From: Salinibacter altiplanensis
Lineage (GTDB): Bacteria > Bacteroidota > Rhodothermia > Rhodothermales > Salinibacteraceae
Length of the DNA: 64,000 nucleotides
Assembly: GCF_002894645.1 (NCBI RefSeq)
Contig: NZ_NCQY01000020.1
Span: forward strand, 533,183 to 597,182
Direction: 5' to 3'
Made by a program: the position numbers and the translations under genes. How positions within the stretch are numbered: the stretch's first letter is position 1; each line of letters begins with the position of its first letter. Below are positions 27,093 through 47,575 of the stretch, in pieces. The notes under the pieces were generated by a model. The model was not told the DNA's origin. It saw nothing but the letters and a program-made list of their open reading frames with translations, and ran no database searches.

Positions 27093-29993
27093 ATGAACCG
27101 ATGGATACAGGGCGTTGTACTCAGCATCGCACTTCTTTCCTTCCCTGGACTTGCTTGGGCACAGCAGGGGGCGATTACCGGGACGGTCACGGAGGCCGAG
27201 ACCGGTGATGTCCTCCCCGGTGCGACCGTACAGGTCGTTGGGTCAGGCAGTGGTGCCGCCACGGACGGGCAGGGCCAGTACCAAATATCGGGGGTCCCTG
27301 CGGGCGAGCAGACAATCCGCGTCTCCTTTGTCGGGTACCAGGCGTCGGAACGCACCGTGGAGGTAGCGGACGGGGAGACAGTCCGGGCCGACTTTCGGCT
27401 CCAGACCGCTCAGGCCCAGCTCGAGGAGGTTGTCGTGACCGGGTTCGGGCGAGAGCAGACCCGTGGAGAAGCGAACGTGTCGGTGTCACAGATCGACGCC
27501 AGTGAGCTGACGGAAACCACGGAATACGAAAACGTGACCGATCTCCTGCAAGGGCGCACCTCGGGGGTTACGGTCACGCGTTCGTCCGGCAATGTCGGCG
27601 CGGGGCTGCGGTTCAACGTGCGAGGGGGCGTGAGCCTCAACAGCGACGGACAGCCGCTCATTTTCGTCGACGGGACGCGCATCACGCAGGACCCGGCCCC
27701 CGGGTTCGACGTCGGGGGACAGCCCACCGGCTCGCCCCTCGCGGACCTGGACCCGAGCAACATTGCTTCGATCAATGTGCTCAAGGGACCGGCGGCGACG
27801 TCCCTGTACGGGACCGACGGGACCGACGGCGTGGTGCTGATTGAGACAAAGAGTGGGGAGCGGGACCAAGATCTGCAGGTCGAGTACCAGGGCACCCTGG
27901 GCGTCGCGACGAAGCAGAGCGACTACAACGATGACATCTACCCCACGGCCGGTCGGCTCAACGACATTCACCGCCAGGGAAACATCCAGGGACACCGGGT
28001 GTCGATTTCCGGGGCGGGTGACATTACCACCTACAACCTCTCGTACTCCCACCGCGATACGGAAAGCATCTTCCCGACCGGGGAGGGACAGCGGAACAAT
28101 GTGAGCGCCAACGTGGAGGCACGCCCGACGGAGTCGCTCACGATCAGTAGCCGCTCGACCCTTGCGTTCAACTACTACGACCGCCCCCTGGCGGACAACA
28201 ACATCTTTGGCGTCCTCGGGGCCCTTGCCCTGGACGCGCCGTTCGGCGGCTTCACGGAGCGGGACAGCGCGGCGGCCTTTGCCGTCGAGGACCGGCAGCG
28301 GGTCCGGAAATTCCAGCAGTCCGTCGAGCTCTCGTACCGCCCGGAAGCCATCCCTGGGTTGCGCCTTCGCGCTCAGGGAGGGGCCGACATCAGTGCGCGG
28401 CGCAACGACCAGACCTGGCCGAGCCAGTACGAGGACATCTATACGTCCAGTGGCGGCGAACGAAATGCACTCGACTCGGATCGGCGTCGCTTCAATGCCG
28501 ACCTGACGGCGACCTACGACTACGACCTCACGTCCAGCCTGAGTGCCACAACCACCGCCGGGACGCAGCTCTTCACGGAGTCGGATCGGCAGGTCAACGC
28601 GACGGCGTCGCAGATCGGTACGGACCTGATTACCGACATTTCTGCCGGGACGCAGCTCGACTTCATCGGCGAAAACCTGTCGAACGAGCGGAGTGCAGGC
28701 ATCATTGGCCGGCAGCAGCTCGAGTTCCGGGGCCGCTACTCCCTCGAACTCTCCGTCCGGCGAGACTGGTCGACCCGGCTCGTGGCGGGGGAGACCGACT
28801 CGTTCAAGGAGTGGTATCCTGCCGCACGGGCGTCGGCCCAGATTGGGGACTTCGAGGTCATTCCGGACGCGGTCAGTCGCCTCAACGTGCGGGCCTCCTG
28901 GGGACAGTCCGGCTCCCTTCCCGACCTGGTGGACGGGGAGTTCCTGCGCCTTCAGGGGCAGGCCAGTGGGTTTGGGTCCGGGGCAACCATCGGAAACATC
29001 GGCGATCCGGACCTTGGCCTCGAGCGGGTGAACGAGGTGGAGGGCGGATTCGACCTGGGCATCAATAACCGGTATTCGCTCTCGTTCACCTACTATCGCC
29101 AGAACACGAACAACTCGATCGTAAACTTCGACCCGGCCCTGTCGACGGGGTTTGGCAACCAGTCGGCCCCCCGAAACGTCGGGGAGATCTTCGCGCAGGG
29201 GATTGAGACGAGCCTCGACGTGACGGCGCTTCGCACGGAGCAGTACACACTGAGCTTCAACGCCAACTACAGCTACCGCGAAAGAGAGGTACGAGAGCTG
29301 GGCGGTCAATCCATCTTCGGAGGCTTTCAGCGAAATGTCATTCGCGAAGACCTCGCCCCCTTCAGCTTCTTCGGGCGGCGCGTCGAGGGGGCTCGCTTCG
29401 ACGACGCCGGCGAGTACCTCGGGCCCGCCGTGAGCGACGAACGGGTCGAGCTCGGGAATCCGGTGCCGGACCACTTCGGCGGGTTTGGCCTCTCGGCCAC
29501 CCTGTTTGAGAACCTGCGTGTGAACGCGCAGGCGGAGTACCAGCTCGGCCATCAAACCTACTCGAACACGGCCCGCTTCCTTGCTCTGAGGGGAGGGCAC
29601 GCGCAACGAAGAGAGCTCCAGGCGGCGCTCGATGAACTTGAGACTGGGACCGACCGGTACAGGGCGGTTGCGAACGACCTCGCCCGAACCAACCCGGGGG
29701 CCGGAATCGGAGAGATTGACAACTTCCTCCAGGACGCGGACTTCCTCAAGCTCCGCTCAGTGGGGGTCCGGTACGATGCGTCCCAGCTGATTGGGAGATT
29801 CGCCGGTACGGACCAGCTGAGAAGCTTCACGGTCGGGTTCTCGGCGTCGAATCTCTTCACGATCACGGGGTACGACCAGGGCCCCGATCCGGAGGTCAAC
29901 TCTGAGGGGTCGCGAGGCCTCATTCGCGGACAGGACTTCCTGACCCTGCAAAACCCGCGGGAATACACCTTCACCCTCGAGGTTGGCATCTGA
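27093..29993 (+). CDS. SusC/RagA-type TonB-linked outer-membrane protein, copy 1
   Basis: 966 residues. Signal peptide ends at AWAQ. A carboxypeptidase-D-regulatory-like domain (about 25-100; GAITGTVTEAETGDVLPGATV to IRVSFVGYQ) is followed by the SusC plug (LEEVVVTGFGREQ; VTDLLQGRTSGV; LKGPAATSLYGTDGTDGVVLI) and a 22-strand barrel ending YTFTLEVGI. SusC proteins import oligomers (glycans or peptides) energised by TonB, with the SusD lipoprotein as lid. The partner susD lies 102 bp downstream behind a hairpin. The protein is on the short side for SusC. It is closely related to the protein at 32989 along its whole length. No glycan hydrolase is nearby, so the substrate is unknown. Confidence 0.93.
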   Translation: MNRWIQGVVLSIALLSFPGLAWAQQGAITGTVTEAETGDVLPGATVQVVGSGSGAATDGQGQYQISGVPAGEQTIRVSFVGYQASERTVEVADGETVRADFRLQTAQAQLEEVVVTGFGREQTRGEANVSVSQIDASELTETTEYENVTDLLQGRTSGVTVTRSSGNVGAGLRFNVRGGVSLNSDGQPLIFVDGTRITQDPAPGFDVGGQPTGSPLADLDPSNIASINVLKGPAATSLYGTDGTDGVVLIETKSGERDQDLQVEYQGTLGVATKQSDYNDDIYPTAGRLNDIHRQGNIQGHRVSISGAGDITTYNLSYSHRDTESIFPTGEGQRNNVSANVEARPTESLTISSRSTLAFNYYDRPLADNNIFGVLGALALDAPFGGFTERDSAAAFAVEDRQRVRKFQQSVELSYRPEAIPGLRLRAQGGADISARRNDQTWPSQYEDIYTSSGGERNALDSDRRRFNADLTATYDYDLTSSLSATTTAGTQLFTESDRQVNATASQIGTDLITDISAGTQLDFIGENLSNERSAGIIGRQQLEFRGRYSLELSVRRDWSTRLVAGETDSFKEWYPAARASAQIGDFEVIPDAVSRLNVRASWGQSGSLPDLVDGEFLRLQGQASGFGSGATIGNIGDPDLGLERVNEVEGGFDLGINNRYSLSFTYYRQNTNNSIVNFDPALSTGFGNQSAPRNVGEIFAQGIETSLDVTALRTEQYTLSFNANYSYREREVRELGGQSIFGGFQRNVIREDLAPFSFFGRRVEGARFDDAGEYLGPAVSDERVELGNPVPDHFGGFGLSATLFENLRVNAQAEYQLGHQTYSNTARFLALRGGHAQRRELQAALDELETGTDRYRAVANDLARTNPGAGIGEIDNFLQDADFLKLRSVGVRYDASQLIGRFAGTDQLRSFTVGFSASNLFTITGYDQGPDPEVNSEGSRGLIRGQDFLTLQNPREYTFTLEVGI

Positions 29994-30002
29994 TGGCCTC
30001 CA

Positions 30003-30042
30003 GGCGAGGGGCGAGTCCCACTCTCGGGGCGTCCCCCTCGCC
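30003..30042 (+). terminator. Hairpin between susC1 and susD1 (attenuator or RNA-stabilising)
   Basis: GGCGAGGGG (30003-30011) pairs with CCCCTCGCC (30034-30042), with additional inner GC pairing. No U-run follows, so it is more likely an RNA-processing or partial-attenuation hairpin than a full terminator. The other two susC-susD gaps have hairpins at the same place. Confidence 0.6.
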
Positions 30043-30095
30043 GGCCCACCTTTCGACTTGCCTCGATGATTTTTACCCACAGCTAGAACCACACC

Positions 30096-31652
30096 ATGAG
30101 TAGCTACGCGATCCCCTTGAAGAAGATTTTGGCACTCAGCGTCGTCCTGGCGCTTGCCGGGTCGCTCTCGGCCTGCGACTCGTTCGTCTCAAACGTTGAC
30201 CAGCCGAAGGATGCGGCCGGCGATGAGCAGTTCAACGATCCGGCCGAGGCCGAGTACCTTATCACGGGTGTTCGGGCGCAGTGGGCCGACTCCCACGCGG
30301 GCGTCACGACCCTGGCCGACGGCCTGTCCGACGAGTTCCGCTTTGGGATCAATGACGACGCAACCTTCCCGACGTTCGCCCAGCTCGACGCCGGGATTGT
30401 GGCGGACGACAACAACAGTATCACGAACGCCCTCGCTGACCTCCAAGAATATCGGTACCTGGCGGACGACCTGCTCCGGCGGCTAGAGGCATCGGAAGAA
30501 TTCGACCCCGAGGCGTCCTCCGCCTCTGCGTCGGCGGCCGAGATTCGCTTCGCGGCCAACGTGCACGGGGCAAACGCCCGGTATTACCTCGCCACGTACT
30601 TCGGCCACCCGGACGATCCGCGTCGGGGCGGGGCGACGGTCGACACCTCCGCGTTCATCCCGTCGCCGGAGCTGTACCAACGGGCAGAGGACAAGTATGC
30701 GAATGCGCTGGCCCAGGCCAAAGCGATGGACGATGAGTTGCGCCTGCGGCGTGTGCAGTCGGTTCGTGCCCGGAATGCCCTCTACGCCGGCACCCACGAT
30801 TTTGAGGACGCCGGAGGACTTCAGGGGACGGCCGCGCTTGAGGCCGCCGCTGAGCATGCGCGCGAGGGCCTTCAAGAAGGCGAGTCCTGGCAGGTCCGCC
30901 ACGACCTGAACACCGTGAACGACTATCACAACCAGGCCGGAGTGGGGCGTCTCCAGCTGGCCGTGCAGGACGGCCGCCAGGCCCAGCTTGCGACCCGGAG
31001 CCCGGACCCCTCGCAGAGCTATCGCGTGGCCGACGAAAACACCGGAGAGCTGGCGGCACGGAGTCACGTTGAGACGGTGGCCGACAACCCGCAGGAGCTG
31101 CGCCGACTCCCCCTCACGGTCATCAACTCCCGAGGGGCGACGCTCGGTGGGTTCGGGGCCCTTCCGGAAAACCTGACGGACCTCGGGATCAACCGTGAGG
31201 ACTTCTCTGCGGTATCCGACGCCTGGCAGGCAGATGGGGAGGCGAATTCGCTCCCGACCTCGGTGGGCGACTTTGAGGAGGGAGACACAATTATCGAGTG
31301 GGGACAGGGCCGATGGGAAGAGCGCACGGACATGCCGTTCATCAGCTGGCAGGAGCATTTCCTCGTCCGCGCCGAACTCGAACTGCGGGGATACGATGCT
31401 GGAAGTGAGACGGCGTTGGAACTGGTGAACACCGTCCGGGAGAGCTACGGCCTCGGCACTCTTTCCAGCGTAGACCTGAATCGCCTGGCCATCGAGCGGG
31501 ACCGCACCCTCTTTGCCACCGGAAATCGCCTTCCGGATCAGCGCCGAATGGATGCGGTGAAGTGGCACCTGAAGGATCAGGTCAATGGGGAGACGACCGC
31601 GCAGTGGCTGCCGCTCACGCGTGCGGAGACGGACCCCAACCCGAACTTCTAG
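30096..31652 (+). CDS. SusD/RagB-family lipoprotein, copy 1
   Basis: 518 residues. Signal peptide with lipobox LSAC (Cys at about 27), followed by DSFVSNVDQPKDAA. SusD-like lipoproteins form the hinged lid over SusC and capture the substrate on the cell surface. The helical SusD core shows TPR-like segments (ALADLQEYRYLADDLLRRLEA; HGANARYYLATYFGHPDD) and a C-terminal stretch ERDRTLFATGNRLPDQRRMDAVKWH, the family's typical 'E R xx L F xx G x R xx D' end. It pairs with susC1 upstream and is nearly collinear with the copy at 35982. A strong terminator follows. Confidence 0.9.
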   Translation: MSSYAIPLKKILALSVVLALAGSLSACDSFVSNVDQPKDAAGDEQFNDPAEAEYLITGVRAQWADSHAGVTTLADGLSDEFRFGINDDATFPTFAQLDAGIVADDNNSITNALADLQEYRYLADDLLRRLEASEEFDPEASSASASAAEIRFAANVHGANARYYLATYFGHPDDPRRGGATVDTSAFIPSPELYQRAEDKYANALAQAKAMDDELRLRRVQSVRARNALYAGTHDFEDAGGLQGTAALEAAAEHAREGLQEGESWQVRHDLNTVNDYHNQAGVGRLQLAVQDGRQAQLATRSPDPSQSYRVADENTGELAARSHVETVADNPQELRRLPLTVINSRGATLGGFGALPENLTDLGINREDFSAVSDAWQADGEANSLPTSVGDFEEGDTIIEWGQGRWEERTDMPFISWQEHFLVRAELELRGYDAGSETALELVNTVRESYGLGTLSSVDLNRLAIERDRTLFATGNRLPDQRRMDAVKWHLKDQVNGETTAQWLPLTRAETDPNPNF

Positions 31653-32988: not shown

Positions 32989-35886
32989 ATGAAGCGACTG
33001 ATACCAAGCATTGCGTTCGGAGTCTTGTTCTTGCTGCTTCCGGGACTTACCTGGGCGCAGCAGGGCACCGTGACGGGAACGGTCACGGAAGAAGAAACTG
33101 GTGACGTCCTGCCAGGAGCGACCGTCCAGGTTGTTGATTTGGAAACTGGGGCTGCTGCAAACGCCAGTGGGCAGTACCGGGTAGCAGGAGTACCTGCAGG
33201 AGAGCAGACCATTCGAGTTTCCTTCGTGGGATACCAGGCGGCAGAGCGGACCGTGAACGTGCCGGAAGGCGGAACCGCTCGTGTGAACTTTCAGCTCCAG
33301 ACTGCCCAGGCTCAGCTTGAGGAGGTTGTGGTGACTGGCTTCGGTCGCCAGGAACAAACCCGCGGAGAGGCCAGCGTCTCGGTCACTCAGATTGATGCCG
33401 GAGAACTTACAGAAACGACAGAGTACGAAAACGTAACTGACCTTCTACAAGGACGAACATCTGGTGTAACAGTGTCGCGCTCCTCTGGCAATGTAGGGTC
33501 TGGCCTGCGGTTCGACGTGAGGGGCGGTGTGAGTCTGAATAGTGATGGTCAGCCACTCATCTTTGTGGACGGAACGCGAATCGCGCAAGACCCTGCTCCT
33601 GGATTTGATGTTGGAGGGCAGGATACGGGGTCTCCGTTGGCCGACCTCGATCCGAGCAACATCGAGTCGATCAACGTGCTGAAGGGGCCATCGGCGACGT
33701 CATTGTACGGTACCGATGGAACCGATGGTGTGGTGCTGATTGAGACGAAAGCTGGGGAGCGCGGTCAGGACCTTGAGGTTGAATATCAGGGCACCCTGGG
33801 GGTGGCCACGAAGCAGGAAGACTATAACAACGATATTTACCCCACGGCAAGCCGACTGAACGACATCCACCGTGATGCAAGTATCCAGGGACATCGGGTG
33901 GCCATTTCTGGATCGGGAGAAATTACAAACTACAATCTTTCGTACTCCTACCGCGATACGGAAAGCATCTTCCCGACTGGGGAAGGACAGCGAAACAACG
34001 TGAACGCCAACGTTGAGGTGCGCCCGTCGGAGTCCTTGACGGTTAGCAGCCGATCCACTCTCGCGTTTAACTACTATTCCCGGCCGCAGGCGGACAACAA
34101 CATCTTCGGCGTGCTCGGCGCCCTTGCTCTTGATGCGCCGTTTGGAGCCTTCTCAGCGCGGGATAGCTCGGCCTTCTTTGCTATCGATGATCAGCAACGC
34201 GTTCGGAAGTTTCAGCAGTCTGTTGAGCTTTCGTACAGCCCTGATGCCATTTCGGGATTGAGTCTTCGCGCTCAGGGAGGGGCTGACATCAGTGCGCGGC
34301 GCAACGATCAGAGCCTGCCCAACCAATTCGAAGACATTTACACCTCTACTGGGGGAGAGCGAAATGCGCTTGACTCAGACCGGCGCCGCTTCAACGCCGA
34401 CCTGTCGGCAACCTACAACTACGATATCACGTCTGATGTAAGTGCTACGACAACTGCGGGAACGCAGCTCTTCACGGAGTCGGACCGGCAGGTGAATGCG
34501 ACGGCGTCTCAGATTGGTACGGACTTGATTACCGATGTTGGCGCAGGGACGCAACTTGATTTCATCGGGGAGAACCTGTCGAATGAGCGGAGTGCAGGCA
34601 TCATTGGCCGACAACAGTTTGAGCTCCTGGATCGATACTCCGCGGAGTTTTCAATTCGGAGAGACTGGTCCACTCGGCTTGTCGCGGGAGAAACTGGTTC
34701 ATACGACGAATGGTACCCCGCTGCGCGAGCGTCTGCTCAGATTGGTGACTTTTTGCCAGAGGCAGTCAGCCGACTTAACATCAGGGCTTCCTGGGGACAG
34801 TCCGGCTCACTTCCTGATCTAGTCGACAGTGAGCTGGTTCGCCTGAACGGGCAGTCCAGCGGCTTCGGGACTGGCGCGACCATCGGCAACGTTGGGGATC
34901 CGGATCTTGGCCTGGAGCGTGTGAATGAGGTGGAAGGAGGATTCGATCTGGGGATCAATAACCGGTATTCCCTCTCGATCACCTACTACCGGCAGTCCAC
35001 GGAGAATTCGATCGTTAACTTCGATCCCGCACTGTCAACCGGATTCGGTAATCAGACGGTGCCCCGAAATGTCGGAGAGATTTTCGCTCAGGGTATTGAG
35101 ACGAGTCTCGACGTGACGGCGATTCGTACCGAGCAACATTCGCTGAGCTTCAATGCGAATTACAGCTACCGAGACAGAGAGGTAGAAGAGCTTGGCGGGC
35201 AGTCCATCTTCGGCGGATTTCAGCGGAATGTGATCCGCGAAGGATTTGCGCCGTTCAGCTTCTTTGGTCCCCGAGTAAATGGGGCCAGTTTCGCTGAGGA
35301 TGGTACCTATCTCGGCCCGGACGTGAGTGATGAACGGGTCGAACTCGGGAATCCGGTGCCGGACCACTTCGGTGGATTTGGGATCTCGGCCACTGTGTTC
35401 GAAAACCTGCGGTTCAATGCCCAGGCGGAGTACCAGCTTGGCCATCAGACCTTCTCGAATACGGCGCGCTTCCTTGCCCTAATTGGTGCTCATGAGCGGC
35501 GGAATCAGCTCTCTGAAGAACTCGGAGGACTTGAGCCCGGCACCGAGGAGTACAGAGGGGTCGCGAATGAGCTGGCTCGAACCAATCCGGGTGCTGGAAC
35601 AGGTGAAATTGATAACTTCCTCCAGGACGCGGACTTTCTCAAACTCCGCACGATTGGGGTTCGGTATAACGCGTCCGACTTGATCGGATCGCTCACTGGA
35701 GTGAGCGAGCTGCGGAGCTTCACGGTCGGATTTTCGGCCTCAAATCTCCTTACGATCACGAGCTACGATCAGGGTCCCGATCCAGAGGTCAACTCCGAGG
35801 GATCGAGAGGCTTGATTCGTGGGCAGGAATTCCTCACCCTGCAGAACCCGACGGAGTATACGTTCACGCTTGAGGTTGGGATCTAA
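32989..35886 (+). CDS. SusC/RagA-type TonB-linked outer-membrane protein, copy 2
   Basis: 965 residues, collinear with copy 1 over its entire length with long identical blocks (for instance TTEYENVTDLLQGRTSGVTV, DQGPDPEVNSEGSRGLIRG). Signal peptide (ends TWAQ), carboxypeptidase-regulatory-like domain, plug with LKGPSATSLYGTDG, and barrel ending YTFTLEVGI are all intact. Replacements cluster in places likely to be loops (for example RVNGASFAEDGTYL against RVEGARFDDAGEYL). Codon use differs: copy 2 uses more A- and T-ending codons than copy 1 and the rest of the window. This suggests either import from a lower-GC relative or long divergence under different constraint. Partner susD2 follows after 95 bp with a hairpin between. 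Confidence 0.93.
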   Translation: MKRLIPSIAFGVLFLLLPGLTWAQQGTVTGTVTEEETGDVLPGATVQVVDLETGAAANASGQYRVAGVPAGEQTIRVSFVGYQAAERTVNVPEGGTARVNFQLQTAQAQLEEVVVTGFGRQEQTRGEASVSVTQIDAGELTETTEYENVTDLLQGRTSGVTVSRSSGNVGSGLRFDVRGGVSLNSDGQPLIFVDGTRIAQDPAPGFDVGGQDTGSPLADLDPSNIESINVLKGPSATSLYGTDGTDGVVLIETKAGERGQDLEVEYQGTLGVATKQEDYNNDIYPTASRLNDIHRDASIQGHRVAISGSGEITNYNLSYSYRDTESIFPTGEGQRNNVNANVEVRPSESLTVSSRSTLAFNYYSRPQADNNIFGVLGALALDAPFGAFSARDSSAFFAIDDQQRVRKFQQSVELSYSPDAISGLSLRAQGGADISARRNDQSLPNQFEDIYTSTGGERNALDSDRRRFNADLSATYNYDITSDVSATTTAGTQLFTESDRQVNATASQIGTDLITDVGAGTQLDFIGENLSNERSAGIIGRQQFELLDRYSAEFSIRRDWSTRLVAGETGSYDEWYPAARASAQIGDFLPEAVSRLNIRASWGQSGSLPDLVDSELVRLNGQSSGFGTGATIGNVGDPDLGLERVNEVEGGFDLGINNRYSLSITYYRQSTENSIVNFDPALSTGFGNQTVPRNVGEIFAQGIETSLDVTAIRTEQHSLSFNANYSYRDREVEELGGQSIFGGFQRNVIREGFAPFSFFGPRVNGASFAEDGTYLGPDVSDERVELGNPVPDHFGGFGISATVFENLRFNAQAEYQLGHQTFSNTARFLALIGAHERRNQLSEELGGLEPGTEEYRGVANELARTNPGAGTGEIDNFLQDADFLKLRTIGVRYNASDLIGSLTGVSELRSFTVGFSASNLLTITSYDQGPDPEVNSEGSRGLIRGQEFLTLQNPTEYTFTLEVGI

Positions 35887-35898
35887 CGGCATCTCAAG

Positions 35899-35930
35899 AG
35901 GAGTGGGAGGCGACTCCCCACTCCTTATTT
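35899..35930 (+). terminator. Hairpin between susC2 and susD2
   Basis: AGGAGTGGG (35899-35907) pairs with CCCACTCCT (35917-35925), followed by TATTTT. It is stronger as a terminator than the susC1/susD1 hairpin because a T-rich tail follows, and would act as a partial attenuator between the two genes. Confidence 0.7.
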
Positions 35931-35981
35931 TCCTGTCCCCAATTTGCCTCTACGTTTCTAACGCACAGCCAGAATTGAGAT

Positions 35982-37562
35982 ATGAGTAGCTACGCAACTA
36001 CCTTGAGAAGGATTTTTGCACTCAGTACCGTACTGCTTCTTGCAGTGACGTTTGCGGCCTGTGACTCATTCGTCTCGAACGTTGATCAGCCGAAGGACGC
36101 GTCCGGAAGTGAGCAGTTTAGCGATCCGGCTGAAGCTGAGTTCCTCATCACCGGTATCGAATCGCAGTGGTCCGACACCCACTCCGGCGTCACAGACCTG
36201 GCCGATGGTCTGTCCGACGAGTTTCGCTTCGGGATCAACGGCGACGCAACCTTCCCGACGTTTGCCCAGCTTGACGCTGGAATCTTGGCGGACGACAACA
36301 ACAGCATCACGGGCGCCCTAGCGGATCTTCAGGAGTACCGATTCCTGGCAGATGATCTCCTCCGACGGGTGGAGGAGGAGGAAGAGTTCGATCTCAGCGA
36401 TCCCTCGGCGTCGGCTTCGGAAGAAGAGGTCCGTCTCGCAGCGAACCTACATGGAGCCAATGCACGGTATTACTTGGCCACTTACTTCGGCGATCCGGAC
36501 GATCCGCGACGCGGCGGTGCCACGATCGATACCTCCGCGTTCATTCCGTCCCCTCAGTTGTACCAGCAGGCGGAGGATAAATATGCGAACGCCCTTGCTC
36601 AGGCTGAGGCGCTAGAAGATGGAGCGGTCCAGCGGCAGATTCAGTCTGCACGAGCCCGTGCCGCTCTCTATGCTGGGACTCACGACTTTCAGGACTCAGG
36701 AGGATTCCAGGGAGACGCTGCCCTTCAGGCCGCCGCACAGTATGCGCAGGAAGGACTCCAGCAGGACGAGAGTTGGGATGTGCGCTATGACTTAAATACT
36801 GGGAATGATTATCACTTTCAGGCGGGAGCGGGGCGCCTGCAACTGGCTGCACAGGATGGGAACCTGGCCCAGCTTGCCACTCGTAGTCCCGATCCGACCC
36901 AGAGCTACCGCGTAGCTGATGAGAGCACAGGAGAGTTGGTTGTCCGAAGCCACGTTGAGACGGTAACGAACAACCCGGCTGAGTTTAGTCGGATTCCGCT
37001 TACCGTTGTCAATGACGGAGGCACGTCGCTGCTTGGGTTTGGTGCTCTTGCCCCTAACCTTCCCAGCAGTGGTTTGGCTCTTGGTGCATTCGATGCACCG
37101 GCTTTTCCCGGAGTGCTTGCTGACTGGGTGCCAGATGGAGAGGCAAATCTTCTTACCACACTGTTTGGAGAAGACGCTGGTCCTGACAGTGGACTTTCCG
37201 TCATCGAGTTCGGACAAGGCAGATGGGCCGAGCAGACGGACATGCCGTTCATCAGTTGGCAGGAGCACTTCCTCATCCGCGCTGAGCTTGAGCTGCGTGG
37301 ATACGACGCGGGAAGCGAGACTGCCCTTGAACTGGTCAACACCGTTCGGGACAGCTACGGCCTGAGCGAGTTGAACAACATCGACCTTGAGCGGCTCGCC
37401 GTTGAACGCGACCGCACCCTCTTCGCGACCGGAAGTCGGCTTCCGGACCAGCGCCGTATGGATGTGGTTGAGTGGCACCTGAAGGATGAGGTGGACGGTC
37501 AAACCACGGCACAGTGGCTGCAACTCACGCAGGCTGAAACGGACCCCAATCCGAACTTCTAA
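35982..37562 (+). CDS. SusD/RagB-family lipoprotein, copy 2
   Basis: 526 residues; lipobox-containing signal peptide ending FAAC, then DSFVSNVDQPKDAS as in copy 1. The two proteins align end to end; copy 2 carries a small insertion (around PDGEANLLTTLFGEDAGPDSG) where copy 1 is shorter. The conserved end ERDRTLFATGSRLPDQRRMDVVEWHLKD is present. Surface substrate-binding lid for susC2. Like susC2 it shows more A/T-ending codons. The same type of terminator follows. Confidence 0.9.
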   Translation: MSSYATTLRRIFALSTVLLLAVTFAACDSFVSNVDQPKDASGSEQFSDPAEAEFLITGIESQWSDTHSGVTDLADGLSDEFRFGINGDATFPTFAQLDAGILADDNNSITGALADLQEYRFLADDLLRRVEEEEEFDLSDPSASASEEEVRLAANLHGANARYYLATYFGDPDDPRRGGATIDTSAFIPSPQLYQQAEDKYANALAQAEALEDGAVQRQIQSARARAALYAGTHDFQDSGGFQGDAALQAAAQYAQEGLQQDESWDVRYDLNTGNDYHFQAGAGRLQLAAQDGNLAQLATRSPDPTQSYRVADESTGELVVRSHVETVTNNPAEFSRIPLTVVNDGGTSLLGFGALAPNLPSSGLALGAFDAPAFPGVLADWVPDGEANLLTTLFGEDAGPDSGLSVIEFGQGRWAEQTDMPFISWQEHFLIRAELELRGYDAGSETALELVNTVRDSYGLSELNNIDLERLAVERDRTLFATGSRLPDQRRMDVVEWHLKDEVDGQTTAQWLQLTQAETDPNPNF

Positions 37563-40370: not shown

Positions 40371-43300
40371 ATGTTTCGAAAGCTACTATCTGTGCTTGCA
40401 GGTCTGTTGCTGTTGCTTCCGGCAACTGTGCTGGCCCAAGACACCGGTACCGTTGCGGGCACCGTTGTCGATAGCACCACCTCCGAAACCCTCCCGGGCG
40501 TCAACGTGACGGTTCAGGACCTCAACATTGGGGCCGCCACCGGGCCGAACGGGCAGTTTGAGATCTCCGGCGTCCCGGCGGGGGAGCAGGTCCTTCAGGC
40601 GTCCTTCGTCGGGTACACCCGAAAGAGCATCCCGGTGGAGGTGGAGGCCGGCGAAACGACGACTGTCAATGTCCGCTTGGCGCCCCAGGCGGTTGGCCTC
40701 GAGGATGTCGTGGTGACGGCCCTAGGCGTGGAGCGCGAGGAGCGCGCCGTCTCGTCGTCTGTGCAGCAGGTAGACGGGGCAGACCTCGACGCCACGGACA
40801 ATGCCAACTTCGTCAACTCCCTCCGCGGAAAGGTCTCGGGGGCGAACATCCGGTCGTCCAGCACGATGGGCGGGTCCTCGAACATCGTCCTGCGCGGCTA
40901 CAGTTCGATCAGTGGCGACAACCAGCCGCTGATCGTGATTGACGGCATCGTGGTCTCCAACCAGTCGCGCCAGAGCGGAGGGGGGACCGTTGAGGGAAAC
41001 GGTGGGTTTGACTTTGGAAACGCCGCCTCACGGTTGGATCCGGGCAACATCAAGTCGGTCTCGGTTCTGAAGGGTCCTTCCGCCGCCGCACTGTACGGGT
41101 CTCGAGGCGCGAACGGGGTCATTCAGATTACGACGAAGGACGGGTCCAACCTCGACGATGAGATTGGGGTCTCCTTCTCCTCCAGCGTCAGCATGAGTCA
41201 GGCGTACGAGTTCGTAGACTACCAGAACAAGTACGGCGGCGGCGCGCCGAGCTCCACGTTCTCGACCCTGGATGGCGACTTCAAGAAGTCGGGCGACGAT
41301 CAGTACGTCGCGCAGTACGCCGTGGATGAGTCCTGGGGGCCCCGCCTCGACGGGCGCCCGGTCCGGCAATGGTACAGCTGGGATGACGTGAACGGGCTGA
41401 AGGGGCAGGCGACGCCTTGGGAGGCTCATCCGGACGCGGTGAAGGATTTCATGGACACCGGCGCGGTGTTTACCAACAACGTTGCCCTGTCGCAGCAGAC
41501 CGAGTCGCTCAACTACCGGCTGGGACTCACCAGTCGCAATCAGGGCAGTGTGATGCCGAACGGCTCGATGGACCGATACCAGGTCAACTTCAACGGGTCG
41601 GTCGACCTGAGCGATGATCTCCAGGCGACGACCTTCGCGAAGTACAGCTATCAGGACGTGAAGGCGCGGTCCGGAATGGGCTATGGGTTCGAGGAAAATC
41701 CCTTCGCTGCCTTCAACACCTTTACGCAGCGACAGCTCGACTACGGGGCCGACAGCTACATGCGCGACTACCAGCGCACGAATGGCCAACAGCGCGGCTG
41801 GAACTACGCTGGTGTCTCGGGGGCGCAGGGACCGGTCACTCAGTTCCAGTACACCGACAACCCGTACGTGAACCGGTACGCGAACTTCCAGCAGGATGAC
41901 GAACAGCGCCTGCTCGGAAAGGCCGAGGTGGCCTACGACATCGTGCCGAACCTGACCGGAACGGCTACGGTCACCACCGACTTTCGGACGCATCGGTTTA
42001 GCGACCGCCGCTCCGACATCTCTACGGGGGCTCCGGGATCCTTCAGTGAGGACGTGATCGAAGAGCAGGAAACGAGTTCCTCGCTCCGGTTTGACTACTC
42101 GCGGTCCCTGACGGATCAGGTGGACCTGACCTCTTTCGTGGCCGGAAAGGTGCGGTACGAGACCTACGAGCAAAACTTGGGCTCGACCCAGAACGGGCTC
42201 GCCGCGCCGAACGTGTTCACGCTTCAAAATTCCGTCGGCCGACCCGACGTGGAAGAGACGTTTCGAGAGAGTATGGTCTACAGTACATACGGGCTTGTTA
42301 GCCTGGGCTATCAGGACATCGTGTTCCTGGAGGGGACGCTCCGAAACGACTGGTCGTCCACGCTCCCGGCCGACAACAACTCGTACCTGTACCCATCGAT
42401 CTCGGGAAACTTTATCTTCACGGGCCTAGACGCCCTTCAGGACCAGGAAATCCTGTCGTTTGGAAAGGTGCGGGCGAGCTGGGCGCGCGTCGGGCAGGAC
42501 ACCGATCCGTATCGTCTCGGCGTGACGTACCCGGGCAGCACTCCTTTCCAGGGGCAAGCCCTCCAGAACGTGCAGCGGTCGGCTAACAATCCGGACCTGA
42601 AGCCGGAACGGACGACGGGGATCGAGTTCGGTGCGGACCTGCGCTTCTTTAACGAGCGAGTCAACCTGAGCACGACCTACTACCGCGACGTGACGAAGGA
42701 CCAGATCCTTGCGGTGGACGTGTCGGGCGCCTCCGGCATCGGGTCGTCCCTGATTAACGCCGGGGAGGTGTCGAACCGAGGGCTGGAGGCGAGCCTGACG
42801 GTGACTCCGGTTCTGCAGGAGGATCTGCAGTGGGACGTGACGGCCAACTTCAATAAGAACGTGAACAAGGTCGTCGACCTGGCCGAGGGACTGGACACCT
42901 ACAATCTGACCGCGGGAGGAGTGATCTTCGGCCCAACGATTCAGGCCCGGGAAGGCGAAGCCTATGGTGCGATGGTGCAGCCGTCCCTACGTCGTGACGC
43001 GAACGGCGATGTGGTCTTTCGGCGAAATGGCGTTCCGCGCACAACATCCAGCCCGCAGGTCGTGGGGAACTTCCAGCCGGACTGGACCGGGGGGCTCTCG
43101 ACTACGCTATCCTACCAGGGAGTTACGGTCAGTGCCGTCGTCGACGGGCAAGTGGGCGGAGACGTGTACTCCCTCTCCAACAAGTTCGGGACCTACAGCG
43201 GGCTTGTGGGGTCGACAGTCGCCGACAATCAGCGTGAAACCGGTGTCATCCCTGAAGGCGTCGTGGTGGATGATGGCACCCCGAACGAGAATGGCAACTA

Positions 43301-43649
43301 CGACGTCGAGGGCACGGACTTCGGCGAGGCCGAGGGCCGCATTCCGGCGGCGAGCTACTGGAAGAATTGGTTCTCTGCGGGCGGAGGCGATCAGTTCATC
43401 TACGACGCGACGCACGCCAAGCTGCAGGAGCTGGCGATCACCTACAGCCTCCCGCAGCGCTGGTTTAACGACTTTGCGCTCCAGCGGGCCAGTGTCTCCC
43501 TCACCGGGAGCAACCTGATGTTCCTTTACAAGGAGGCGCCCAACATCGACCCCTCGGTGACCCTTGGGGCCGGAAACGTTCAGGGCGTCGAGTCGGCTCA
43601 GATTCCGCCCCAGCGTCAGTACACCTTCCGCGTGAACCTGAGCTTCTAA
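40371..43649 (+). CDS. SusC/RagA-type TonB-linked outer-membrane protein 3
   Basis: 1092 residues; signal peptide ends VLAQ. Carboxypeptidase-regulatory-like domain (TGTVAGTVVDSTTSETLPGVNV to LQASFVGY), then the SusC plug with VGLEDVVVTALGVEREERAVS and SVLKGPSAAALYGSRGANGVIQI, and a long barrel ending PQRQYTFRVNLSF. Unlike the other two SusC proteins, it has the classic 'ALGVEREER' and 'GSRGANGVI' wording of the larger SusC/RagA class and is not part of the duplication. Its susD partner at 43751 is also of a different subfamily. Substrate unknown. Confidence 0.94.
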   Translation: MFRKLLSVLAGLLLLLPATVLAQDTGTVAGTVVDSTTSETLPGVNVTVQDLNIGAATGPNGQFEISGVPAGEQVLQASFVGYTRKSIPVEVEAGETTTVNVRLAPQAVGLEDVVVTALGVEREERAVSSSVQQVDGADLDATDNANFVNSLRGKVSGANIRSSSTMGGSSNIVLRGYSSISGDNQPLIVIDGIVVSNQSRQSGGGTVEGNGGFDFGNAASRLDPGNIKSVSVLKGPSAAALYGSRGANGVIQITTKDGSNLDDEIGVSFSSSVSMSQAYEFVDYQNKYGGGAPSSTFSTLDGDFKKSGDDQYVAQYAVDESWGPRLDGRPVRQWYSWDDVNGLKGQATPWEAHPDAVKDFMDTGAVFTNNVALSQQTESLNYRLGLTSRNQGSVMPNGSMDRYQVNFNGSVDLSDDLQATTFAKYSYQDVKARSGMGYGFEENPFAAFNTFTQRQLDYGADSYMRDYQRTNGQQRGWNYAGVSGAQGPVTQFQYTDNPYVNRYANFQQDDEQRLLGKAEVAYDIVPNLTGTATVTTDFRTHRFSDRRSDISTGAPGSFSEDVIEEQETSSSLRFDYSRSLTDQVDLTSFVAGKVRYETYEQNLGSTQNGLAAPNVFTLQNSVGRPDVEETFRESMVYSTYGLVSLGYQDIVFLEGTLRNDWSSTLPADNNSYLYPSISGNFIFTGLDALQDQEILSFGKVRASWARVGQDTDPYRLGVTYPGSTPFQGQALQNVQRSANNPDLKPERTTGIEFGADLRFFNERVNLSTTYYRDVTKDQILAVDVSGASGIGSSLINAGEVSNRGLEASLTVTPVLQEDLQWDVTANFNKNVNKVVDLAEGLDTYNLTAGGVIFGPTIQAREGEAYGAMVQPSLRRDANGDVVFRRNGVPRTTSSPQVVGNFQPDWTGGLSTTLSYQGVTVSAVVDGQVGGDVYSLSNKFGTYSGLVGSTVADNQRETGVIPEGVVVDDGTPNENGNYDVEGTDFGEAEGRIPAASYWKNWFSAGGGDQFIYDATHAKLQELAITYSLPQRWFNDFALQRASVSLTGSNLMFLYKEAPNIDPSVTLGAGNVQGVESAQIPPQRQYTFRVNLSF

Positions 43650-43666
43650 GCGCTGGGCTGCTGTTC

Positions 43667-43697
43667 CTCGCCCCCGGTGCGGCCTGTCGGGGGCGAG
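43667..43697 (+). terminator. Hairpin between susC3 and susD3
   Basis: Perfect 10-bp stem CTCGCCCCCG (43667-43676) / CGGGGGCGAG (43688-43697) with no T-run. Same position relative to the genes as the hairpins in the other two SusC-SusD pairs. Confidence 0.65.
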
Positions 43698-43750
43698 AAC
43701 GGGCTACAGGACCTGCAATCATTTCCCCAACAGTTGATTGACTCCCTACT

Positions 43751-45388
43751 ATGAGACGCCACGCTACACTGACACTACTCGTTGCCGGCGGGCTTTCGGT
43801 CCTCCTGGCCTTGGGGGGCTGCGACAGCCTCACGAGCTACAACGACAACCCCAACGAGGCCACGTCTGCCAACCCCAATAACCTCCTCGCCAATGCCCAG
43901 CGTTACATGGCGGGCGAGGTGTACGCCGGGACCAACATGATGCGCCGCTCCAACGTGTGGGCGCAGTACACGACCCAGAACTTCTACCCGTCGGAGAGCC
44001 GTTACTCTCCGGTGGACTACCCGTGGGAAGGCTTTTATACCCGGCTGACCGACCTCAAGACGGCCAAGCAGATTGCGAAGGAGCGGCCGGGCACGGTTCA
44101 GAATCAGGGTAATTTCCAGGCGGTTGCCACGATCATGCAGACGTGGGCCTTCCAGATTCTGACTGACGCGTACGGGGACATTCCCTTTGCCGAGGCCCTC
44201 CAGCAGCGCGAAAACCAGTCGCCTGCCTACACGGCCCAGGCGAACATCTACCCGGCGCTCGTGGACAGCTTGAATTCAGCGCTGGATCAGATCGACACGG
44301 AAGCGGCAGGGCCGTCTGGGGATCTAGTGAACGGGGGCAGTATGGCGATGTGGCAGAAGTTTGCCAACGGTCTGAAGATGCGGATCGCCCTGCGTGGTTA
44401 CGATCTTGATGCGGATTGGGGAGACCTTCAAGGACCGGACGCCATCATCTCGAACGCCATGGACCCGAACGTAAATGGGGAGCCGCTCACCAGCAACGCC
44501 GACAACGTGTACTTCCAGTTCAGCACGAGCGCAACTCACCGAAATACTTACTACGAGAACCGGGAGGTCGACTTCCGAGACGACTTTGACGGGTCGGCAC
44601 GCTTTATCGACTTCATGGAGACGAAGTACGGTGCGGCGGATCCCCGCCTGGACGCGTACTTCGAGCAGACGTCGAACTCCGGGCGTCCCTGTGAGGATGG
44701 AAGTGGCGAGTACGAAGGGTTTCCGTTTGCACTTGAGCAGGGGGATGCTCAGGGACTGTATGGTGACAATTCGACCTGTGGGTTCTCACGGCCAGAGGCC
44801 TGGTTCCCGAATGGTCCCAGCAGTGAGGGAGACTCATTCGCCCCGATGATGTACTACGATGAGGTGCTGCTGACGAAGGCCTGGGCCGCCGACGAGGGCA
44901 TCATCTCTGGCACCCCGCAGGAACTGATCGCCGACGCGATCGAGGCATCCGTTAACTTCTATGGGAACCAGACGGACGCCGACATCTCGGGGTCGAGCAG
45001 CGCAACGCAGAATTACGTCTCTCAGGTGCAGAACGACTTCGGGTCGGATCCGAAACAGGTGATCGGGGAGCAGCGCTACATCTCCTTCTACATGCACAAC
45101 ATTCAGGGGTGGTCCACCTGGCGACGCTTCGACTTTAAAGGCGTGCTTGGTGCTCCCACAGGCGGTGTGGCCGGTGGGTTCGACTCCTACGCCCCGCTCC
45201 GCGTGCCGTACCCGGCGTCGGAGGCCAACCTGAACGGTCAAAACTACACCGAGGCTGCCAACAAGTGCAGTGGAGACTTTCAGGGCTCTGGCGGTTCTGA
45301 GGGCGGTGCGCAGAAGGAGGACGAGGACTGCCGGGTTGCCTGGGATGTGGACGGTCCCCCGTCGGGCAACGCATACAGTTCCGACTAG
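43751..45388 (+). CDS. SusD/RagB-family nutrient-binding lipoprotein 3
   Basis: 545 residues. Signal peptide with lipobox LGGC (Cys at about 24) and then DSLTSYNDNPNEATSANPN, the typical start of the SusD-like 'nutrient-binding outer membrane lipoprotein' subfamily (SusD_2 type). TPR-like helices include GNFQAVATIMQTWAFQILTDAYGDIPFAEAL, a highly conserved block of that subfamily, and SMAMWQKFANGLKMRIALR. Near the C-terminus are ISFYMHNIQGWSTWRR and the strand APLRVPYPASEANLN. Paired with susC3. Confidence 0.92.
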   Translation: MRRHATLTLLVAGGLSVLLALGGCDSLTSYNDNPNEATSANPNNLLANAQRYMAGEVYAGTNMMRRSNVWAQYTTQNFYPSESRYSPVDYPWEGFYTRLTDLKTAKQIAKERPGTVQNQGNFQAVATIMQTWAFQILTDAYGDIPFAEALQQRENQSPAYTAQANIYPALVDSLNSALDQIDTEAAGPSGDLVNGGSMAMWQKFANGLKMRIALRGYDLDADWGDLQGPDAIISNAMDPNVNGEPLTSNADNVYFQFSTSATHRNTYYENREVDFRDDFDGSARFIDFMETKYGAADPRLDAYFEQTSNSGRPCEDGSGEYEGFPFALEQGDAQGLYGDNSTCGFSRPEAWFPNGPSSEGDSFAPMMYYDEVLLTKAWAADEGIISGTPQELIADAIEASVNFYGNQTDADISGSSSATQNYVSQVQNDFGSDPKQVIGEQRYISFYMHNIQGWSTWRRFDFKGVLGAPTGGVAGGFDSYAPLRVPYPASEANLNGQNYTEAANKCSGDFQGSGGSEGGAQKEDEDCRVAWDVDGPPSGNAYSSD

Positions 45389-45404
45389 GTGACGCCTGTC
45401 ACAC

Positions 45405-45437
45405 GTCCCTCCGGGCTCTTGTTCGGAGGGACCTTTC
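45405..45437 (+). terminator. Probable terminator after susD3
   Basis: Perfect 9-bp stem GTCCCTCCG (45405-45413) / CGGAGGGAC (45424-45432), followed by CTTTCC. The T-run is weak, but the stem is GC-rich. Confidence 0.7.
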
Positions 45438-45494
45438 CTGCAGTTCTGCTACGTCATCTACATCGTGAGACACTCCGAATCAGTTACGGGACTT

Positions 45495-46745
45495 ATGAGA
45501 AATCGATATCACACACTTCTTTTGCTTTGTGCGACCGCTGCGCTGGTGCTTGCGGGCTGTGATCAGAGCTCGCAGCAGGCGAGCCCGGAGAACGCAAATC
45601 GATACATCATCACCCAGAGCAGTTCAGCTGGAGACGCAGCTACCGGGTCATTCTCCGACGCAAACGTGGTGAATGTCCCCGATACGGTGGACTACTACAT
45701 GCAGGGGTACACCGTCGACAAAGACTACACCTGGACGGTGAACGGGTCGTCGGACCTTCCCACGTCGGCAAGTTCCGATCAGACCTACGAATGGCAGAGT
45801 CGTGGCGGCGAATTCATCACGGTCGTGTACGGGCCGGGCGACCCCATTGCCACCACGGCGGGCATGAGCGCGAGCACCAACTCGATTCAGGTGGACGCGA
45901 GCAACGACGACATCAACGCCGAGACGATTGATGTTTCGGCGGCGGTGACCGACAGCATCAGCGGCCAGATCGGGCGCTTCGGGGCCTTCTCAACCCTGAC
46001 GAATCTGGCCGCCTCCTCCGGCATTGCGGAGTTTCTCGGTCAGGAGGGGCCGTCCTTCACATTGTTCGCGCCGTCTACCGCCGCATTTGCGGCCGACATC
46101 GACGGGGACGACGAAGTTGAACAGGCAGGAGCCATCGGCGGCACGCCCACGCAGGCCGTGGACGACGATGAGGACACCGATTCGAGCGTCCGTGCGCAGC
46201 TTCTAAAATACCACGCCATCCAGGGCGATAGCCTCACGGCGAGCGACCTGCCGGTAACCAGGGAGACGGTACTGGGGCCAGAGGTTACTGTGAACGGCGA
46301 CAAGGTCTCGCAGGCCAACATTCCGGCGACGAACGGTGTGATCCACAAGCTCAACGAGCCGCTCTTCCCGCCGACAGCTCTGGTGGACTTCACGGACCGC
46401 ACGCTGGCGGACACGTCCGTCACGGACACGGACTCCCTGACGGTCGATGGGTCCTACTTCCCGGAGGCAGGTGGATACATCGTCCTTCACGAAGGCTCTG
46501 CTGGTGGGCCTGTCGTAGGAAGCTCAGAGTACGTCGAAGGGCGTGGGGTTAGCAATGACGTACAGGTGTACTTGAACAAAGACTACAGCGGAGAAAGCGC
46601 TGTGACCCTGGTCGCCATGCCGCACGAGGAAACCACGGGCGATGAGACACTTGACTTCCCCGGAAACGACACGCCGTACACACTCAGCGGAAGTCCTGTG
46701 ACCGATCAGGTGGAGATTACGGTGGAGTCTACCGGGTCCAACTAG
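45495..46745 (+). CDS. Lipoprotein with fasciclin (FAS1) and DUF7282-like domains
   Basis: About 416 residues from ATG 45495; lipobox LAGC followed by DQSSQQA. An N-terminal strand-rich segment (about 30-160) has no clear family. A FAS1 domain follows: FGAFSTLTNLAASSG, FTLFAPSTAAFAADI (first FAS1 motif), LLKYHAIQG, and ATNGVIHKLNEPLFP (second motif), with a long acidic loop between. The C-terminal 115 residues (SLTVDGSYFPEAGGYIVLHE; GSSEYVEGRG; VTLVAMPHEETTGDETLDF; PYTLSGSPVTDQVEITV) match the DUF7282 pattern common in haloarchaeal surface proteins. FAS1 domains mediate adhesion. It follows the SusC3/SusD3 pair after a terminator. Confidence 0.85.
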   Translation: MRNRYHTLLLLCATAALVLAGCDQSSQQASPENANRYIITQSSSAGDAATGSFSDANVVNVPDTVDYYMQGYTVDKDYTWTVNGSSDLPTSASSDQTYEWQSRGGEFITVVYGPGDPIATTAGMSASTNSIQVDASNDDINAETIDVSAAVTDSISGQIGRFGAFSTLTNLAASSGIAEFLGQEGPSFTLFAPSTAAFAADIDGDDEVEQAGAIGGTPTQAVDDDEDTDSSVRAQLLKYHAIQGDSLTASDLPVTRETVLGPEVTVNGDKVSQANIPATNGVIHKLNEPLFPPTALVDFTDRTLADTSVTDTDSLTVDGSYFPEAGGYIVLHEGSAGGPVVGSSEYVEGRGVSNDVQVYLNKDYSGESAVTLVAMPHEETTGDETLDFPGNDTPYTLSGSPVTDQVEITVESTGSN

Positions 46746-46990
46746 CAATCCTTGGGGGTTGCCCTTGCACCGTTCTGCCAGATATGGGGAGCCGATTGTC
46801 CCGGTCGGGGCGGTCGGCTTCTCTGTTTGGGGAGGAGAGCACGCCCGTCCATCCCTGTGAGGACGCGCACGTCGGTGTCCCCGCGACCGGAAGGCCTTTG
46901 AGAGGTCCGTCGCCGCACCATCGTCACGGAACTGTAGGCCGTAGGACCCCCCTTCTGGAGAATCGATTTTGCGTAACAATAGTAGGGCTA

Positions 46991-47575
46991 ATGGTTGACA
47001 TGAACGTTCATGCCCAAAAAGGCTGGTTTGTCTTTGTTCTTGTGTTTTTGATCGCTGGGTGCGGCAGCTCCTCTCCGCCCGTTCAGATCACCCAGGACGC
47101 GTCGTCCGGCCAAACGACCTACAAGACGCGCCAAATGCCGTTGTCCGGAATTGAGATGACGCAGGGCCTCGAGACGGGAAATCGGTTCTACATGCAGGTT
47201 GTGGGGACGTGCGCTAGCCAGGACTGCGTGCCCCGATCCTACGCCCTCCGCTTCATCAAGGAGGGCACGCAGCCTGTTCAGCTTGAGGGGCGGGGCGTGA
47301 GCCTGACCATTGGGACGGAAACCCTTACCTGGAAAGACCCTCAGAACCGCTCGGTGAACCGAACGTCCACCATTCGAAGCGGCACGTTTGCGCGTGTGGA
47401 GGTAACGAGCGAGCAGCTGTCTACCATCGGAGGCGTGAACGAAGTCAGCGGGACGGTCGGGGGAGAAGGCTTCTCCGTCTCCCACGAGGCGCGTGCGCCC
47501 ATCCGCCGGTTGCTGACGCGGCTGGAAGAAGACGTAGACGATTCGTCGGGGGGACGCCCATCGCAGAGGGATTGA
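46991..47575 (+). CDS. Hypothetical lipoprotein
   Basis: About 194 residues from ATG 46991 (or 47000). Signal peptide with lipobox IAGC, then a Ser/Pro-rich start. The mature part is predicted to be mostly strands (GNRFYMQVVGTC; RSYALRFIKEG; QLEGRGVSLTIGTETLTW; FARVEVTSEQLSTI), with a positive C-terminal helix RRLLTRLEEDVDD. The Cys pair in GTCASQDC could form a disulfide. I recognise no family. The frame is open upstream to 46784, but that part has no signal-like start. Confidence 0.65.
   Translation: MVDMNVHAQKGWFVFVLVFLIAGCGSSSPPVQITQDASSGQTTYKTRQMPLSGIEMTQGLETGNRFYMQVVGTCASQDCVPRSYALRFIKEGTQPVQLEGRGVSLTIGTETLTWKDPQNRSVNRTSTIRSGTFARVEVTSEQLSTIGGVNEVSGTVGGEGFSVSHEARAPIRRLLTRLEEDVDDSSGGRPSQRD

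Follow-up and report, generated by a model that had tools for sequence, protein, structure and literature searches.

A FAS1-DUF7282 lipoprotein encoded behind a SusC-SusD pair in Salinibacter altiplanensis and its family: a putative third transporter component with a haloarchaeal-type domain

The open reading frame that follows a SusC-SusD gene pair in Salinibacter altiplanensis encodes a predicted 416 amino acid lipoprotein in which a FAS1 (fasciclin) domain is joined to a DUF7282 domain of haloarchaeal type. The locus lies in a 64,000 nucleotide stretch of contig NZ_NCQY01000020.1, here termed the window. The protein is somewhat more probably than otherwise (roughly 0.55) a third, accessory lipoprotein of the SusCD transporter and a chimera in which the haloarchaeal-type DUF7282 acts as a ligand-binding module. 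The coordinates of the locus are given in Table 1.

Table 1. Features of the SusC-SusD-lipoprotein locus, by position in the window
Feature	Position	Strand	Basis
SusC/RagA-type TonB-dependent outer membrane transporter, first gene of the trio	40371..43649	+	TIGR04056 E 4.6e-167, Plug, CarbopepD_reg_2
SusD-like lipoprotein (second gene of the trio), which probably forms the lid of the transporter	43751..45388	+	PF12771 E 3.4e-72
GC-rich hairpin in the SusD-lipoprotein spacer (GTCCCTCCG...CGGAGGGAC)	45405..45432	+	fold
FAS1-DUF7282 lipoprotein gene, 416 aa, third gene of the trio	45495..46745	+	ORF translation, Pfam
Signal peptide and lipobox LAGC, Cys22	45495..45560	+	sequence motif
N-terminal region, residues ~23-163	45561..45980	+	beta-rich in low-confidence model
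FAS1 (fasciclin) domain, residues 164-292	45984..46370	+	PF02469, structural match
DUF7282 domain, residues 308-409, haloarchaeal-type	46416..46721	+	PF23951, trees, domain model

Both domains are recognized by Pfam above the respective cut-offs. The DUF7282 match has an E-value of 4.7e-19 (69 bits, cut-off 27) and the Fasciclin match an E-value of 2.7e-13 (50.6 bits, cut-off 22). The region between the lipobox and the FAS1 domain (residues 23-163) displays no match to a Pfam family. The lipobox was located by motif search alone and ends at Cys22; the signal peptide and lipobox predict that the protein is a bacterial lipoprotein. A reading made earlier from the DNA letters, the sequence-only reading, had proposed this joining of FAS1 and DUF7282 in a lipoprotein and is borne out on this point; the four motifs it quoted are all present in the translation. 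The genome as a whole displays one DUF7282 match and ten FAS1 matches.

The position directly behind a SusC-SusD pair, which had also been noted, is confirmed in the window, where 106 bases separate the stop codon of the SusD-like gene from the start of the lipoprotein gene. The link is kept elsewhere. The order SusC-SusD-lipoprotein on one strand is found at all 13 orthologous loci that were fetched, i.e. 14/14 when the window is included. The SusC sequences of the fetched loci display 45 to 96% identity to the SusC of the window, and with identity as low as 45% the order of the trio has thus outlived much divergence. Downstream of the trio the window has an open reading frame of 192 residues, followed by another TonB receptor gene and one for a DUF4249 protein. 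Five fetched loci (L145, L148, L149, L150 and L152) keep these three genes; at the other eight they are rearranged, incomplete or not seen.

The fusion is not particular to the genome of the window. Full-length FAS1-DUF7282 orthologues are present in 14 of the 27 family genomes searched, which places the fusion in five of nine genera, and among the family genomes of at least 90% completeness and at most 5% contamination it is found in 12 of 14. The Pfam scan covered 10 of the 13 orthologues outside the window and both domains are above cut-off in all ten. When the first 299 residues were used as the query against 114 genomes of the order, only partial matches were obtained outside the family. 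The partial matches all start at residue 99 or later and lie mostly over FAS1; the fusion therefore seems to be confined to the family.

DUF7282 itself is found in 163 of 194 Halobacteria genomes, in 26 of 394 genomes sampled from the phylum of the window (seven with the fused copy, 18 others above cut-off and one below), in 30 of 114 genomes of the order, including G640 below cut-off, and in 16 of 27 genomes of the family. It is also present on plasmids of Sulfitobacter, Palleronia and Limimaricola. The description of the domain as known mainly from haloarchaea has to be widened for the phylum genomes and the bacterial plasmids. The G640 match (L182) is probably a false one, with a very long branch and a score below the Pfam cut-off. 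FAS1 was detected in 1 of 26 haloarchaeal genomes in one set; a second set of 194 gave 22 matches, spread over 21 genomes. Fasciclin is absent from all 66 haloarchaeal DUF7282 proteins scanned, which represent 78 loci from which 12 near copies were left out. Conversely, the 12 fetched of the 22 haloarchaeal FAS1 loci, together with L137, show no DUF7282 within the stretch examined in a scan that had L001 and L004 as positive controls, and the other 10 have open frames of 139-228 aa, which are too short for both domains. No FAS1-DUF7282 protein was found in the parts of the haloarchaea searched.

The DUF7282 half displays a clear haloarchaeal affinity. With a domain of the fused type (G384) as query, all 26 plasmid records matched are haloarchaeal, and among the best 80 of 177 confirmed loci in species genomes 78 are haloarchaeal and two are fused copies already known; the latter are from uncultured Bacteroidetes and have domains identical to those of G409 and G394. 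A fused copy reaches up to 56% identity to haloarchaeal copies in its best segment. The tree built from 105 DUF7282 domains separates the other bacterial copies from the fused and haloarchaeal copies together with support of 100/100 and places the 14 fused copies in a single group (100/99). After clustering, the set for this tree was down from 260 to 67 haloarchaeal and from 35 to 24 bacterial domains; L057 and L072, whose domains duplicate those of G409 and G394, were left out, as were haloarchaeal domains that contain X or are shorter than 95 residues and two very diverged bacterial domains. After removal of 14 long or odd rows (five fused, nine bacterial) the bacterial split has support of 100/98 and the fused group of 99/84, and the fused copies are joined to eight haloarchaeal rows (96/85). 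When 11 more domains from the order were added, with L139 and L140 removed and the L181 domain (68 residues) too short for inclusion, 33 bacterial and order rows fall together (96/100) and the fused group is again obtained (99/89). The 11 added domains, the doubtful L182 among them, fall in the bacterial clade. The alignment has 116 columns only, and in none of the three trees had the bootstraps settled. A third DUF7282 repeat in L104, on a Haloferax elongans contig, gives a translation that left the impression of a sequencing artefact and was kept out of the trees.

A one-residue difference follows the same division. A Ser is present in 14/14 fused and 66/67 haloarchaeal rows, and a gap is found at this position in 21 of 24 other bacterial rows. 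The kinship of the fused DUF7282 with haloarchaeal copies, as judged from sequence comparison, is firm within the sampling used, where most haloarchaeal rows derive from a scan with patterns built on two fused and one haloarchaeal copy and bacterial phyla other than that of the window are represented by plasmids only. The fused domain is not placed deep among ordinary bacterial sequences; those copies lie across the 100/100 branch. In the best trees the fused copies are nested among the haloarchaea, which form a group of their own in 0% of 200 bootstrap replicates. A single haloarchaeal group with the fused copies as sister is not rejected by AU tests (p 0.369 and 0.262), which leaves the direction of transfer unproven. 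Nesting, and with it an archaea-to-bacteria direction, is favored but not proven by these alignments, and the likeliest history is a single acquisition of the domain, by an ancestor of these genera, from a haloarchaeon. The transfer between salt-lake archaea and bacteria that had been suggested accordingly stands as to the affinity of the DUF7282 half; as to direction, the nesting is that of the best trees and the sister placement is left standing beside it.

The tree of FAS1 domains comprises 13 haloarchaeal rows (the 12 fetched and L137), eight from the genome of the window and the 14 fused ones, with bacteria represented by the family of the window only. The haloarchaeal FAS1 domains cluster together (96/97) to the exclusion of the fused FAS1 domains; therefore the protein looks chimeric by descent, with a FAS1 half that appears to be of non-haloarchaeal stock. 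The 14 fused domains and two FAS1 domains of the same genome come together as 16 rows (95/91). Because these two split the fused ones, the latter do not make up a single group. The two domains of the same genome belong to the FAS1 lipoproteins L155:4723-8650 and L154:1554-8321 (-), which have two and four FAS1 domains and lie near receptor-like genes, so labeled from their similarity to the receptors of the window and by eye. Five of the eight FAS1 domains of the genome are on the haloarchaeal side (93/84). The earlier view of the FAS1 part as bacterial is therefore supported by its separation from the haloarchaeal FAS1 group and is qualified by these five domains.

A model of the full-length protein has a pTM of 0.70, with confidence that is high for DUF7282, fair for FAS1 and low for the N-terminal part. 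Structure prediction supports the FAS1 fold: alignment of this domain with TGFBIp (5nv6) gives a VIA-align Z of 16.4 and an rmsd of 2.1 over 127 residues, and its structural matches include TGFBIp and periostin, with Z of about 16, and also AstaP entries. DUF7282 modeled alone is predicted to form an Ig-like beta-sandwich of eight strands with a mean pLDDT of 91.3. Its top structural match is 8wae, a porphyran-binding carbohydrate-binding module (rmsd 2.9, 94 of 107 residues), at a Z of 7.9 that is just below the trust level and within reach of unrelated sandwiches; the next row has a Z of 6.5, i.e. 1.4 lower. Foldseek returned generic Ig-type matches for this domain, none below E 0.001, and the DUF7282 profile has no match up to E 1 among the sequences of solved structures.

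In PMC7618045 the lip of SusC is described as a platform for further lipoproteins, glycan-binding ones among them, and from this we infer the same part for the FAS1-DUF7282 lipoprotein. The protein would be exported to the outer membrane surface, where its N-terminal or FAS1 part may dock on the SusCD complex. DUF7282 would face outward and act as a ligand-binding module, capturing substrate for SusCD in a manner analogous to surface glycan-binding proteins (SGBPs). A more specific proposal, tentative and on the whole doubtful, is that DUF7282 is a hitherto unrecognized ligand-binding module in haloarchaea and bacteria alike, likeliest for surface polysaccharides, that was captured from haloarchaea by this bacterial family and wired into SusCD uptake, possibly of archaeal or shared brine glycans. 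Were this so, an archaeal surface domain would now feed a bacterial TonB transporter. No carbohydrate-active enzyme was seen among the 12 window open reading frames scanned, the trio included, and a glycan substrate is for this reason a guess.

Among the closest known parallels are SusE/SusF and the SGBPs of Bacteroidetes polysaccharide utilization loci, which likewise are predicted outer membrane lipoproteins encoded straight after susC-susD and have several domains in a row. They differ in that they display known carbohydrate-binding modules, whereas FAS1 and DUF7282 are found here and binding is a prediction, and no carbohydrate-active enzyme was seen here among the open reading frames scanned. 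No SusE/SusF model in Pfam or NCBIfam matches the lipoprotein up to E 1; SGBPs are very diverse. Haloarchaeal DUF7282 proteins share the DUF7282 clade, but often have several copies of the domain and often a PGF-CTERM (25 of the 66 scanned) and lack Fasciclin in all of these 66, whereas the lipoprotein has a single DUF7282 behind FAS1 and a bacterial lipobox. L154 and L155 resemble it in FAS1, lipobox and receptor-like neighbor, and some of their FAS1 domains are the closest to the fused ones; they differ by the presence of two or four FAS1 domains, by the lack of a DUF7282 match and by the lack of a SusD-like gene in the fetched stretch. Other bacterial DUF7282 proteins, in which the domain follows DUF305, occurs twice with a cohesin or is present four times, belong to the same Pfam family but to another clade and have other architectures. 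The cohesin-DUF7282-DUF7282 proteins, at L047:1156-2445 (-) and L049:574-1791 (+), occur in the same bacterial family as the fusion and have DUF7282 of the bacterial type.

Other explanations bear on the origin and on the role of the DUF7282 half. There may have been no transfer, if DUF7282 is old in both domains of life and adaptation to salt has led the fused copies to converge on a haloarchaeal look. This is unlikely, although the AU results agree with it, as does the presence of DUF7282 elsewhere in the phylum sample. The fused and haloarchaeal domains are also similarly acidic (net 0.162 and 0.175, and 0.119 in other bacteria), a property which could pull their rows together in the tree. 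However, copies of the other type from the same family and genus (G395 and G406) remain in the bacterial clade; they are less acidic (0.021 and 0.110), which makes them an imperfect control for convergence. The Ser/gap difference and the level of identity to haloarchaeal copies also argue against convergence. With respect to role, the main rival is that DUF7282 binds a transition metal such as copper. The lipoprotein would then capture or buffer a metal or metal complex for a SusCD-type transporter, a reading which is also improbable. Three columns are strongly conserved, i.e. His332 (66/67 haloarchaeal, 24/24 other bacterial and 11/14 fused rows), His377 (67/67, 23/24 and 12/14) and Asp392 (67/67, 22/24 and 14/14), but these residues may be structural. 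Moreover, G397 and G398 have other residues in place of both histidines and G147 in place of one, and the fusion and synteny are kept in these genomes; the losses in G397 and G398 show that the His site is dispensable in some copies. SusCD transporters are known to take up glycans and peptides, which also speaks against a metal. Plastocyanin-type Copper-bind domains and Ferritin_2 domains each occur in two of the 66 haloarchaeal DUF7282 proteins, and the haloarchaeal DUF7282 gene of L056 is near a gene for a heavy-metal P-type ATPase. Bacterial DUF7282 is fused to DUF305 in all four proteins of that look that were scanned (L033, L173, L174 and L178), and CopM is, we presume, a DUF305 protein. 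CopM is described as a copper-binding protein in PMC4335983, a paper that uses the term DUF305. The DUF305 fusions suggest a metal link for the bacterial DUF7282 clade.

The sequence-only reading had taken the protein to be a surface adhesin that may assist attachment to the substrate. In fasciclin I, TGFBIp and periostin the FAS1 domain serves adhesion, and such proteins are among the nearest solved structures; attachment to a substrate or between cells, with the SusCD operon link reflecting co-expression only, can thus be envisaged. It is nevertheless the least probable of the explanations considered. The SusC-SusD synteny is strict, two other FAS1 lipoproteins of the same genome are near TonB-receptor-like genes, which favors a transporter role, and FAS1 is also a carotenoid-binding module, as in the matched AstaP entries. 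Since adhesion is not borne out by any result and the SusCD link is so consistent, the adhesin reading is retained as a rival only; the operon position points rather to substrate capture for the transporter.

Lateral transfer from archaea to Salinibacter, and exchange of whole genes between halophilic bacteria and haloarchaea, have been published (PMC12613981). In the present case one domain, and not a whole gene, appears to have crossed and to have become fixed in a conserved third gene of a SusCD operon. A literature search on DUF7282 found no paper, and no report of a FAS1-DUF7282 fusion was found in the available parts of the literature on fasciclin/FAS1 with Salinibacter or SusC/SusD. If the accessory lipoprotein reading is correct, a domain that is widespread in Halobacteria and is still named for its unknown function gains a testable setting, in which the substrate of the SusCD pair would reveal the DUF7282 ligand. 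As a separate observation, a DUF305 membrane protein followed by DUF7282 occurs in several of the order's families (L171-L181 and L033). Ten of the 11 added order domains look alike, and the three of them that were scanned, together with L033, are all DUF305-DUF7282.

The hairpin in the spacer between the SusD-like gene and the lipoprotein gene may set the ratio of SusCD to lipoprotein. Among other spacers that were folded (n = 12), several display strong hairpins of diverged sequence at the same place; four short spacers (L141, L144, L151 and L153) gave no obvious hairpin on folding. The hairpin is absent from the terminator-like sites found in a scan of positions 43600-47100, and Rfam at gathering scores gave no match in 45300-45600. 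The scan of 43600-47100 yielded one promoter site, with 0.7 expected, and six terminator-like sites, with 2.3 expected; three overlapping terminator-like matches at 46801-46821 (+), 3′ of the lipoprotein gene, may end the operon. Elsewhere in the window, at 27093-31652 and 32989-37562, there are two more receptor genes with CarbopepD_reg_2 and Plug domains, each of which is followed by a large open reading frame (518 or 526 aa) without a Pfam match. These stretches are possibly two diverged SusCD-like pairs in tandem.
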